Shown: positions 43,112-47,748 of the stretch, piece by piece
Position numbering within the stretch: position 1 is the first letter of the stretch
Layout of the letters: each line of letters starts with the position of its first letter
Assembly: GCA_026225555.1 (NCBI GenBank)
Contig: JAMFSY010000051.1
Coordinates: forward strand, 1-64,000
Length of the DNA: 64,000 bases
Source: Methylacidiphilales bacterium
GTDB lineage: Bacteria > Verrucomicrobiota > Verrucomicrobiia > Methylacidiphilales > UBA1321
Direction: 5' to 3'
Notes under the pieces: generated by a model
What the model was told of the DNA's origin: nothing
What the model saw: the letters and a program-made list of their open reading frames with translations, nothing else
The model's database searches: none
Translations under genes and position numbers: made by a program

Positions 43112-43753
43112 ATGAAAAGCAAGCTTCTGCGGAAATTGGCCAAGAGCCAGAAGTATTTGATCTTAGCTGAGATCAAACGAAGCCAGGGACTTTCCGTCTC
43201 TCAATTGTGCGACCGAATTAACCTCTCGTACATGGGCGTCAAGCAACATTGCGTTTCGCTTGAACGCGACGGCTATCTCGACACGTGGCGCCGCCCGAAA
43301 GGGATGGGCCGCCCCGAGAAAGCCTACCGTCTCACTCCCCAGGCGCAGGAGTTCTTCCCCTCCGAGCATACCAACTTCACCGGCGAGATCCTACGCAGCC
43401 TCGAAGAGGTCTACGGCCCCGCCGCGCCGGAGAAGATCCTTTACCAGATCTACCAGAACCAGACGGTGAAGCTGCAAGCGAAGATCACCGGCAACTCGCT
43501 CGAGGAACGGACTCGCTCCCTCGCCGCCTTGCGCGACCAGGACGGGTACATGAGCGAATACTATTTTAATCCCGATATTCAGCGCCACCAGATCATCGAG
43601 TACAATTCGCCAGTGCTCGCGATCGCCGATCGTTTCAAGATTCTGACCCAGCTCGAAAATGCGCTGATCGAGAATATCCTCGGCACCCGCGTCCATCGTG
43701 AACAGGAACGCGTTTCCGGCCTTTATAAATGCCAGTTCACGTTGATGGATTAA
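43112..43753 (+). CDS. SufR-like winged-helix regulator of the Fe-S locus
   Basis: 213 residues. The N-terminal winged helix (YLILAEIKRSQGLSVSQLCD, then INLSYMGVKQHCVSLERDGY) is followed by the wing GRPEKAYRLTPQAQEFFPS typical of SufR/DeoR-like repressors. The C-terminal half aligns with the SufR cluster-binding region. There, C-x12-C-x13-C-x14-C becomes S (NSPVLAIAD), T (ILTQLE), T/R (LGTRVHRE) and only the last Cys (YKCQF) survives. If it senses Fe-S status, it cannot do so with the usual four ligands. It lies directly upstream of iscU, the target expected for such a repressor. Confidence 0.75.
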   Translation: MKSKLLRKLAKSQKYLILAEIKRSQGLSVSQLCDRINLSYMGVKQHCVSLERDGYLDTWRRPKGMGRPEKAYRLTPQAQEFFPSEHTNFTGEILRSLEEVYGPAAPEKILYQIYQNQTVKLQAKITGNSLEERTRSLAALRDQDGYMSEYYFNPDIQRHQIIEYNSPVLAIADRFKILTQLENALIENILGTRVHREQERVSGLYKCQFTLMD

Positions 43754-43879: not shown

Positions 43880-44281
43880 ATGAAAGAGACCAAAGAATAC
43901 ACCCTTTACAACGACACCGTGATGGATCACTTCCTCAATCCCCGCAACATGGGCGATGTGCAGGAAGCAGACGGCGTCGGTGAAGTCGGCGCGGCAGCTT
44001 GCGGCGACATCATGAAAATTTCGCTCAAGATCCGTGACGGCAAGATCGAAGACGCCCGGTTCAAGACCTTCGGTTGCGGCAGCGCCATCGCTTCCTCCAG
44101 CATGGCCACCGAACTGATCAAGGGCCGCACCCTTGAAGAAGCCAAGAATTTTTCCAACCAGGAAGTGGTCGATGCGTTGGGCGGTCTGCCTCCCGTCAAG
44201 ATTCACTGTTCGGTTTTGGCGGAAGAAGCGCTCAAAGCGGCCATCGAAGATTACGAAGCCAAGCAATCCGCCTCCGCTTAA
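43880..44281 (+). CDS. iscU: IscU-type Fe-S cluster scaffold
   Basis: 133 residues from MKETKEYTLYNDTVMDHFLN, placed by GGAG nine bases upstream. All three ligand cysteines and the conserved Asp are present: AAACGDIMKISLKI, FKTFGCGSAIASSS and PPVKIHCSVLAEEALKAA. The LPPVK motif, which binds the HscA-type chaperone, is also kept although no hsc genes are adjacent. It builds [2Fe-2S]/[4Fe-4S] clusters from iron and sulfur and passes them on. A strong terminator follows, so it may be made in excess over the downstream genes. Confidence 0.97.
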   Translation: MKETKEYTLYNDTVMDHFLNPRNMGDVQEADGVGEVGAAACGDIMKISLKIRDGKIEDARFKTFGCGSAIASSSMATELIKGRTLEEAKNFSNQEVVDALGGLPPVKIHCSVLAEEALKAAIEDYEAKQSASA

Positions 44282-44383: not shown

Positions 44384-45841
44384 ATGGATAAACGCTCCGT
44401 CTATCTCGATCATCAAACGACCACTCCCGTGCTGGAGGAGGCGTTGCAGGCCATGATCCCCTATTTCCGGGAAGCCTATGGCTCTCCCTCCAGCCTGCAT
44501 CGCTACGGCCTCCAGGTCCGCGAAGGGCTCAGCGAAGCGCGCAAGCAAATCGCCGCGATGATCAACGCCGAAAGCGAGGAAGACCTGATCTTCACCTCCG
44601 GCGGCACCGAGTCGGCCAATCTTGCGATCAAGGGTTTCGCCGACGCGAACATGCGGACCAAGGGCAACCACATTGTCGTCTCCGCCATCGAGCATCCTTC
44701 GGTGATGAACTCGGTCGAGTACCTGACCAAGCACGGCTTCGAAGTCACACAGGTTCCCGTCGATGACATCGGGCGGATCCATCCCGAGGACGTTCGCGCG
44801 GCCATCACGCCGAAGACCGCGCTCGTCGCCATCCATCTCGTTAATCACGACATTGGCACCATCCAGCCCGTCAAGGAGATCGCGAAGATCACCGCTGAGA
44901 AAGGCATCGCACTTTATGCGGATGCCCTCGCCGCCGCAGGCTGGATGCCGATCGATGTGCGCGACCTTGGCGTGCAACTGCTCAGCTTCAGCCCGCACCG
45001 CTTTTACGGCCCCAAGGGAATCGGCGTGCTTTACCGCAGCCGCAAGGCCCGCGTGACCAGCCATATTCACGGCGGCGTGCAGGAAGGCGGACGTCGCGCC
45101 GGAACGGAAAACGTTCCCGCGATCATCGGAGCCGGAGTCGCCGCCGAAGTCGCCGTGCGCGACATGGAAAAGAACGTCGCGCATGTCGCCATGCTGCAGA
45201 AGCGGCTTTACGACGGCCTCTGGAAGCACGTCGATTTCATCAAGCTCAATGGTCCCGTCCCCGGCCCTCTGCGCATTTGCAACACTCTCAATCTGAGCAC
45301 CGAATTCATTGAAGGCGAAGGCCAGCTTCTCCTGCTCGACCACCAGGGCATCGCCGTCGCCAGCGGCTCAAGCTGCGTCAGCAAATCGCTCAAGGTCTCC
45401 CACGTCCTCAGCGCGATCAAACTCGATCACGCGCTCGCCCAGGGCAACATCATCATGAGTCTCGGCAAGGACAACACCGTCGAGGATGTCGATTACGTCG
45501 TCGAAACTTTTTCGAAGATCGTTCACAAGCTGCGCAACATGTCTCCGATGTGGAAGGAATTCGAGGAAGGCGTGATCGACTCCGTTATCAATCCAACCGG
45601 CCGCGGCAAATCGTTCACTCAGCACGCCGCCGATATTTCCGGCAAACCTGCGCACGAGGCCGAAAAGGCAAGTCCACTTTCTGCGGAGAGGACCGAGGAA
45701 CTCGTCCGGGAAGCGATCTCCGAAGCGAAGGCGACCGGAGATTCTACTCCCGACGCCGTCTTGAAACGCGCCTCCATCAAGGCCGGTGGACGCGTCGACT
45801 CGCCGACCCTCGTCGAAGTGATCAAAAGACTTTTAGGATAA
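44384..45841 (+). CDS. NifS/IscS homologue lacking the PLP-binding lysine
   Basis: 485 residues. About residues 1-390 match group I cysteine desulfurases: SGGTESANLAIKG, VVSAIEHPSVMNSVEYL, LVNHDIGTIQ, IHGGVQEGGRRAGTENVP, and the sulfur-carrying Cys in ASGSSCVSKSLKVSHVL. The cofactor site is changed. SFSPHRFYGPKG has Arg where IscS has the Schiff-base Lys (SGHKIYGPKG), ADALAAAG has Ala in place of the PLP-contacting Gln (DATQ), and GNIIMSLG has Ile for the substrate-binding Arg (SIRFSLG). A 90-residue tail ends AGGRVDSPTLVEVIKRLLG. Its PLP chemistry is probably lost; a structural or sulfur-accepting role with IscU is inferred. Confidence 0.9.
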   Translation: MDKRSVYLDHQTTTPVLEEALQAMIPYFREAYGSPSSLHRYGLQVREGLSEARKQIAAMINAESEEDLIFTSGGTESANLAIKGFADANMRTKGNHIVVSAIEHPSVMNSVEYLTKHGFEVTQVPVDDIGRIHPEDVRAAITPKTALVAIHLVNHDIGTIQPVKEIAKITAEKGIALYADALAAAGWMPIDVRDLGVQLLSFSPHRFYGPKGIGVLYRSRKARVTSHIHGGVQEGGRRAGTENVPAIIGAGVAAEVAVRDMEKNVAHVAMLQKRLYDGLWKHVDFIKLNGPVPGPLRICNTLNLSTEFIEGEGQLLLLDHQGIAVASGSSCVSKSLKVSHVLSAIKLDHALAQGNIIMSLGKDNTVEDVDYVVETFSKIVHKLRNMSPMWKEFEEGVIDSVINPTGRGKSFTQHAADISGKPAHEAEKASPLSAERTEELVREAISEAKATGDSTPDAVLKRASIKAGGRVDSPTLVEVIKRLLG

Positions 45842-45866: not shown

Positions 45867-46934
45867 ATGCCCCCTCCCCTGACTTCCGAAGCCGTCCTCG
45901 ACCACTTGCGGGGCGTCAAATATCCCGGTTATTCACGGGACATCGTCTCTTTCGGCCTCATCAAGGATGTGCAGATCGATGGCACCCGCGTCCTCGTTCG
46001 CATCGCGCTGACCACCGCTGATGCCAACATCCCCAAGGCCATTCAGGAGAATGCGACCGCCGTGCTCGAATCGATTCCCGGCGTCAGCGAAGCCGAGGTG
46101 AACATCGATCTCAGCGCGCCGGTCAGCAAGGCGCTTCAGGCCGACGCCGGTGGCCTGCCGCAAACCAAAATCGAAGGCGTCAAACACGTCATCGCCGTCG
46201 CGAGTGGAAAAGGCGGCGTGGGGAAATCGACCGTGGCGGCCAATCTCGCCGTCGCGTTGCGCGGGGAAAAAAGCGACAAGAAAGTCGGCCTCTGCGACTG
46301 CGATATTTATGGCCCCAGCGTCGGCCTCATGTTCGGCACTCACGAACGTCCTTCCGCCACCGAGGAGGGCCGCATCCAGCCGATTCGCCGCTACGATCTC
46401 AATTTGATGAGCATGGGCTTTTTGCTCGACGACACCTCGCCCGCCATCCTGCGCGGCCCGATGGTCACGCGCTACACCCAGCAGTTTTTGCGCAACGTCG
46501 ACTGGGGCGAGCTCGATTACCTCATCCTCGATCTTCCGCCGGGCACCGGCGACATCCAGCTCACTATCGTGCAGACCGTCGCGCTATCCGGCGCCATCAT
46601 CGTTACCACGCCCCAGGAAGTCGCGTTGATCGATGCGCGCAAAGCCGCGACCATGTTTGAGAAAGTCAACGTTGCTATTATCGGCCTGGTTGAGAACATG
46701 AGTTACTTCGTCTGCCCCAATGATGGCAATCGCTACGCGATATTCGGTTCCGGTGGCGGCGAACGCGAAGCCGCGCGACTAGGGGTTTCCCTACTTGCCC
46801 AGATTCCGATTGAAATGCGCGTGCGCGAATCGGGCGATCAGGGGCAGCCAATTACGCTTTCCGAACCCGCGAGTCCGACGGCGAAACTCTTTCAGCAAGC
46901 TGCGCAAGCCATTCGCAATCAATTTCCTACCTAA
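45867..46934 (+). CDS. Mrp/ApbC/NBP35-type Fe-S carrier ATPase
   Basis: 355 residues. Residues 1-95 are the DUF59/MIP18-like domain (LDHLRGVKYPGYSRDIVSFG). The ParA-like ATPase has the deviant Walker A VASGKGGVGKSTVAANLA, DCDIYGPSVGLMFG and LDLPPGTGDIQLT. The C-terminal cysteine motif, usually CxxC that bridges a [4Fe-4S] cluster between two subunits, reads YFVCPNDGNRYAIFG here, with one Cys. It moves clusters from the scaffold to targets. It follows the NifS-like gene by 25 bases, so the two are one operon. Confidence 0.93.
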   Translation: MPPPLTSEAVLDHLRGVKYPGYSRDIVSFGLIKDVQIDGTRVLVRIALTTADANIPKAIQENATAVLESIPGVSEAEVNIDLSAPVSKALQADAGGLPQTKIEGVKHVIAVASGKGGVGKSTVAANLAVALRGEKSDKKVGLCDCDIYGPSVGLMFGTHERPSATEEGRIQPIRRYDLNLMSMGFLLDDTSPAILRGPMVTRYTQQFLRNVDWGELDYLILDLPPGTGDIQLTIVQTVALSGAIIVTTPQEVALIDARKAATMFEKVNVAIIGLVENMSYFVCPNDGNRYAIFGSGGGEREAARLGVSLLAQIPIEMRVRESGDQGQPITLSEPASPTAKLFQQAAQAIRNQFPT

Positions 46935-47021: not shown

Positions 47022-47270
47022 ATGTCGGACTCTTCTCTGAAGGACCACGATAATTTGTTCCACAAGTCCGCGCTTTATCAGGAGTTTCTGGCCGAGCGCG
47101 AAGAGATCTTGCGGCACAAGTGGATCGAGAGCGAAAAGCTGGGTCACGACATCGGCTTCGAAAAAGCCCTGCTCGACTGGATCGTCAAGCATCGCGCGGG
47201 CTGGCGGGCCTTGCGGCAATCGAAGCCCTCCAATCCCGGTTACACCAACGGCCAGCACGCCAAGGTCTAA
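47022..47270 (+). CDS. Small conserved-looking protein in the Fe-S locus
   Basis: 82 residues, highly charged and helical: FHKSALYQEFLAEREEILRH and KWIESEKLGHDIGFEKALLD, ending WIVKHRAGWRALRQ. No signal peptide, TM or Cys. The pattern H-K-W-x-E-S-E-x-x-G-x-D-I-G-F-E-x-A recalls a short segment of DUF4032-type proteins, a weak resemblance I cannot test. Its promoter and its location between mrp and the A-type carrier gene suggest a role in metal or cluster assembly; this is inference. Confidence 0.6.
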   Translation: MSDSSLKDHDNLFHKSALYQEFLAEREEILRHKWIESEKLGHDIGFEKALLDWIVKHRAGWRALRQSKPSNPGYTNGQHAKV

Positions 47271-47409: not shown

Positions 47410-47748
47410 ATGACCGCTGTTGCCTCCCTCCCCTCTGTTAGCCTGACTGAAGATGCCGCCCGGCACATCGCCGAGATCATCGGTGACGCCCAGGATAAGG
47501 GTCTGCGTATCTACATCGAGACCGGCGGTTGTTCCGGCATGTCCTACGCCATGGAAATTTCCACCCGCAAAACCGGCGACGAAGAATTCGTCTGCCACGG
47601 CGTGAATCTGTTCGTCGAAGATCGCGGCCTGGTCTACCTGGCCGGCTCGGTCATCGATTACAAGGACGGCCTGACCGGGGCTGGTTTCCGGATCACCAAT
47701 CCCAATGCCAAACAGACTTGTGGCTGCGGGAAATCCTTTGAAGCCTGA
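47410..47748 (+). CDS. A-type Fe-S cluster carrier (IscA/ErpA/HesB family)
   Basis: 112 residues. VSLTEDAARHIAEIIGDAQD begins the fold; the three cluster cysteines are in IETGGCSGMSY and in KQTCGCGKSFEA (C-x-C), the pattern of functional A-type proteins. GAGFRITNPNAKQ is the conserved approach to the CGC motif. It accepts clusters from IscU and delivers them to apo-enzymes. It has its own leaderless promoter and overlaps the following membrane protein gene, so the membrane protein may be co-translated. Confidence 0.95.
   Translation: MTAVASLPSVSLTEDAARHIAEIIGDAQDKGLRIYIETGGCSGMSYAMEISTRKTGDEEFVCHGVNLFVEDRGLVYLAGSVIDYKDGLTGAGFRITNPNAKQTCGCGKSFEA

Follow-up and report, generated by a model that had tools for sequence, protein, structure and literature searches.

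In the textbook ISC system, cysteine desulfuration by IscS is coupled to Fe-S cluster assembly on IscU. The locus described here raises the question of what an IscS-like protein may do beside IscU once the residues used for this chemistry have been lost. It lies in the window, that is, the whole 64,000-nucleotide stretch of a Methylacidiphilales genome that was analyzed, where one open reading frame (Table 1) encodes an aminotransferase class V protein of 485 amino acids that resembles IscS and NifS.

Residue changes and gene order

Residues were assigned by alignment to Escherichia coli IscS, using a sequence identical to MG1655 b2530. The original prediction had placed Arg (codon CGC) at the Schiff-base Lys, Ala at Gln183 and Ile at the substrate-binding Arg, and had noted that the fold and the mobile-loop Cys were kept beside an intact iscU; all of this was borne out, and a fourth change that it had missed, Asn155 to His, was found in addition. 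H104, D180, S203, H205, and T243 are unchanged. The protein thus shares the fold, the mobile-loop Cys, and the iscU neighbor with group I cysteine desulfurases (IscS/NifS), but it lacks the PLP-aldimine Lys, both Gln183 and Asn155, and the substrate Arg, and it falls below all NCBIfam cutoffs for the IscS, NifS, and SufS families (441 vs 530.75 bits for NifS and 361.5 vs 643.2 bits for IscS).

Table 1. Features of the Lys-less IscS-like gene and its operon, in window coordinates
Feature	Position	Strand	Remark
SufR-like winged-helix regulator	43112..43753	+	NCBIfam SufR_cyano 79 bits, below cutoff 178.8
iscU, intact scaffold (three Cys, Asp, LPPVK)	43880..44281	+	Upstream of the Lys-less gene
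IscS-like protein without PLP lysine	44384..45841	+	Alignment to E. coli IscS, structure comparison
Asn155 to His, PLP contact lost (NNE to NHD)	44846..44848	+	
Gln183 to Ala, PLP contact lost	44930..44932	+	
Lys206 to Arg, Schiff-base residue lost (HK206 to HR)	44999..45001	+	Codon CGC
Mobile-loop Cys331 (E. coli Cys328), kept	45374..45376	+	SGSSC
Lys334, +3 residues from loop Cys331	45383..45385	+	
Substrate Arg354 of SIRFSLG to Ile357	45452..45454	+	
Tail LRNMSPMWKEFEEGV	45530..45574	+	Like the C-terminal tail of E. coli IscS
C-terminal extension	45656..45838	+	Weak YqeY match, only in the window genome
mrp/apbC, Fe-S carrier P-loop NTPase	45867..46934	+	Downstream of the Lys-less gene
A-type (IscA/ErpA-like) Fe-S carrier	47410..47748	+	Also downstream in locus L064

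The iscU gene is the only NifU_N gene found in the window genome, and the SufR-like regulator is 86-87% identical in relatives of the same genus (g1). A small open reading frame (47022-47270, 82 amino acids, weak DUF4032 match) lies between mrp and the A-type carrier gene and is 70-84% identical in family relatives. The last 61 residues of the Lys-less protein form an extension carried by the window copy only, as all 11 family relatives end just before it; this part is predicted to be helical, matches the C-terminal part of YqeY weakly (E 0.001, below cutoff), and gave no match in a PDB search.

Conservation, distribution, and genomic context

The Lys-less gene was detected in all 12 genomes of the window's family (f1), with 72-93% identity. 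NIIMSLGKDNT and the Cys loop SGSSCVSKSLKVSHVL are invariant across them, and at position 206, 11 of the genomes have Arg and the remaining one has His; because every family genome carries the gene with these motifs, assembly error or chance does not account for it. It adjoins iscU in 12/12 genomes, with mrp downstream in most and the SufR-like regulator in genus g1. The dN/dS values against the window copy range from 0.04 to 0.23, and the gene is under purifying selection.

A scan of GTDB genomes with the motif HRF[YF]GPKG returned at least 118 stretches. Among the matches listed, 75/80 are IscS-like (one, L154, has Ser at the Lys position); most belong to Verrucomicrobiota, many in the order iscR-iscU-gene-mrp, and others come from Acidulodesulfobacteriota, Nitrospirota, MAGs labelled Deltaproteobacteria, and Hydrothermarchaeota, where a canonical IscS adjoins the Arg copy. 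In Hydrothermarchaeota (L104, L127, L255, and L256), canonical IscS lies next to the Arg copy and two iscU matches, and a third copy, encoded elsewhere, has Thr in place of the Lys. An exact-motif sample of the phylum matched only the window genome, which says little on frequency, as the sample drew almost entirely on highly complete genomes and the exact pattern misses variants such as HRFGG and RGCGG.

Other families of the window's order carry the variants HRFFGPKG, RGCGG, and NQFNGPKG, and iscU is not adjacent there. In family f9 (L047-L053 and L056-L059), relatives with complete small genomes replace the Lys by Gly (RGCGG) or Gln (NQFNGPKG); iscU is not adjacent in them, and SUF is intact where tested. 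In two further families of the order (L042:7980-11356 and L054:8036-11375), the Lys-less gene lies beside aspartate kinase-like and LarE genes; the latter, a sulfur transferase, was confirmed by NCBIfam TIGR00268.

The catalytic residues are retained or lost as a set. Gln183, Lys206, and Arg354 occur together in 37 of 43 Lys-type sequences, whereas among 123 Arg-type sequences Gln183 is kept in three, Arg354 in two, and both in none; Asn155 is present in 43/43 and 17/123, respectively. The loop Cys is kept in 121/123 Arg-type sequences, and Lys or Arg at +3 from it marks 113/123 of them vs 0/43 of the Lys type. Asp180 (122/123) and His104 (118/123) persist, and Ser203, His205, and Thr243 are largely kept; since the Arg motif served to retrieve most of the Arg-type set, some of the conservation at 205-212 is built in, while N155, Q183, R354, and Cys328 lie outside the motif. 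Widespread in Verrucomicrobiota and maintained by selection, this dead-enzyme form of IscS points to a role in Fe-S assembly other than cysteine desulfuration. The near-invariance of Asp180 and His104 means that loss of the aldimine need not imply full loss of PLP, and the window protein may still bind the cofactor non-covalently.

With regard to other routes of sulfur mobilization and assembly, PLP-competent paralogues bearing HK and Gln were confirmed in 11/12 family genomes; the original prediction had proposed to look for a second, PLP-competent SufS. The window genome encodes a NifS on contig C123 (546 bits, cutoff 531), which lacks the IscS-like C-terminal tail present in the window protein, another paralogue on C35, and an encapsulin-cargo-like SufS on C88. 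The SufS (L070:7762-9459 in G000) has 566 amino acids with an N-terminal extension, falls just short of the family-2A encapsulin cargo desulfurase cutoff, and adjoins a SulP-like transporter and a rhodanese-like gene. In 11/12 family genomes the adjacent IscU is the only NifU_N protein, while G009 has a second one in a suf locus. SufB/D is absent in 10/12 (G007 has one partial match and G009 two), and HscB was sought in the 12 genomes and found in none. Among 50 other genomes carrying the motif, SufB/D is absent in 31/34 with adjacent iscU and in 6/16 without it (present in 10/16), counting L167 as not adjacent even though iscU lies in its locus; the association (Fisher p 3e-4 without edge loci) ignores relatedness and draws on incomplete MAGs. 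Several lineages keep the gene without adjacent iscU and with SUF, so not every member needs an IscU partner.

An archaeal precedent and its probable separate origin

The AlphaFold2 model of the window protein, built with 40 sequences, has a pLDDT of 91.8, residues 330-335 at the start of the Cys loop being among the least certain. Its best structural match (target-normalized TM-score 0.97, 1.3 A) is IscS of Archaeoglobus fulgidus, alone or bound to IscU; human NFS1 scores 0.96. The archaeal protein (PDB entries 4EB5, 4EB7, and 4HVK; D199K mutant 4R5F), which the original prediction had not named, bears the same three losses, as its motifs in 4EB5 read DATASVG, SSNDIYGPKG, and HGTLLLTLG; the A. 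fulgidus sequence used as query matched 4eb5 over its full length. It was reported to have no desulfurase activity (PMC7585200), and its Cys321 serves as a ligand of the [2Fe-2S] cluster on IscU (PMC9769115, PMC7585200). Both proteins lack the Lys, the Gln, and the substrate Arg, and retain the loop Cys and the fold; the archaeal protein works with IscU, and for the window protein such a pairing is suggested by gene linkage and the IscS-like tail. They differ in that the Lys position is Asp in A. fulgidus and Arg in the window protein, the preceding residue is Asn and His, respectively, and Asn155 is kept in the archaeal protein but is His here. The window gene also differs in belonging to a bacterial clade of separate origin in the tree and to an operon with genes for the SufR-like regulator, Mrp, and the A-type carrier.

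In addition, IscS1 of Methanosarcina acetivorans lacks the catalytic Lys and is encoded in an iscSU cluster, and it formed inclusion bodies and is uncharacterized (PMC7585200); this protein is archaeal, and it is likened to the window protein by its published description only. Minimal ISC-type systems (MIS, ISC) also place an IscU scaffold beside an IscS-fold partner, as does the window locus, in whose family no HscB was found. The MIS system was described as a desulfurase and a scaffold (PMC12192291), whereas the partner in the window locus is without desulfurase residues. A search of the available literature found no paper on such Lys-less proteins in Verrucomicrobiota. The Lys-less kind of IscS is already known from archaea, and what is new here is a widespread bacterial variant.

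A tree of 92 sequences, built without the trait columns, places every Lys-less protein of Verrucomicrobiota in a single clade (99% SH-aLRT, 45 rows). The original prediction spoke of three independent losses; the changes instead go together, having been inherited jointly within one old clade. The Lys/no-Lys label requires three changes on the tree. Because A. fulgidus IscS clusters with Lys-bearing archaeal IscS (98%) and a single clade of all Lys-less rows was rejected (AU p 0.023, with a quick tree and a group defined by the trait), a single descent shared with A. fulgidus IscS is not supported, and these losses probably have more than one origin.

Possible roles beside IscU

That selection has kept the gene for a role other than PLP-aldimine desulfuration, as originally proposed, is well supported by the phylum-wide clade, purifying selection, iscU adjacency, and the PLP-competent paralogues. 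Sequence alone cannot separate the sulfur acceptor, scaffold, and regulator that had been suggested, nor can it tell cluster ligation from sulfur relay. We give roughly even credence to a partner of IscU that works independently of desulfuration: its Cys331 would have a direct part in assembly, most likely by ligating the cluster, and sulfur would be delivered in trans. Briefly, the window protein would be a catalytically dead IscS dedicated to the neighboring IscU. It would form no Lys-PLP aldimine and would lack the usual means of binding the carboxylate of the cysteine substrate, so that no cysteine desulfuration would be expected. Judging from the iscU linkage and the IscS-like tail, it would dock on IscU, and the mobile loop would bring Cys331 into the assembly site, where, by analogy with A. 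fulgidus IscS, it would most likely be a ligand of the nascent [2Fe-2S] cluster. Sulfide or persulfide would be supplied by the PLP-competent desulfurases encoded elsewhere, and clusters would be passed on by Mrp and the A-type carrier. The likeness to A. fulgidus IscS, the loop Cys kept against lost PLP residues, the dN/dS values, and the adjacency of iscU count for this reading, as do an IscU that is usually the only scaffold, the absence of SUF, the tail, and the HK/Gln paralogues; the retained Asp180 and His104, by which some B6 binding may remain, and the lineages with SUF and without adjacent iscU count against it.

SufE and SufU accept sulfur from SufS, and on this model a PLP-competent NifS or IscS could load a persulfide on Cys331, from which the window protein would hand sulfur to IscU. 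The kept loop Cys and the available paralogues agree with such a relay, and the clade-specific Lys/Arg at +3 could tune the thiol. Yet transfer of sulfur between two IscS-fold proteins has no known example, an entire IscS fold would be a bulky means of presenting a single Cys, and the nearest characterized analogue uses its Cys as a cluster ligand; a relay is rather unlikely.

Some PMP enzymes with His in place of Lys hold B6 without a covalent lysine, and PLP or PMP held non-covalently could likewise serve some other chemistry here, for which the largely kept Asp180, His104, Ser203, His205, and Thr243 speak. The joint loss of Asn155, Gln183, and the substrate Arg, together with Gly, Gln, or Thr at the Lys position of some homologues, makes this improbable.

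In IscS dimers, Thr243 completes the PLP site of the neighboring subunit, and its retention would suit a dead subunit that pairs with a PLP-competent paralogue and activates it or aims it at IscU. Activation of partners by dead paralogues has precedent in other families, such as deoxyhypusine synthase (PMC3663545). Such a heterodimer is quite improbable, as the paralogues are only ~39% identical and encoded far away.

Finally, a decaying copy or a sequencing error, to which the lost catalytic residues and the extension unique to the window genome might be ascribed, has a negligible chance, given a frame open in 12/12 genomes, the low dN/dS, and the phylum-wide clade; relatives restoring HK, Gln, and Arg with the gene as a lone decaying copy were not found.

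The A. fulgidus complex, whose structure shows IscS and IscU with a cluster between them, had seemed to be an exception confined to archaea. That these losses recur in a conserved bacterial clade, mostly in genomes without a SUF backup, suggests that the IscS fold contributes to assembly independently of desulfuration and that selection can maintain this contribution by itself. Somewhat short of even confidence, we propose that large SUF-less lineages of Verrucomicrobiota build clusters on IscU with an obligate dead-IscS partner, sulfur mobilization and assembly being placed on different proteins, and that this arrangement has two or more origins, one in this clade and one in Archaeoglobus. 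Homology-based names such as "cysteine desulfurase" are probably wrong for the Lys-less proteins. These may be regarded as natural separation-of-function forms, with which the question whether the loop Cys is only a sulfur donor or also a cluster holder becomes testable.
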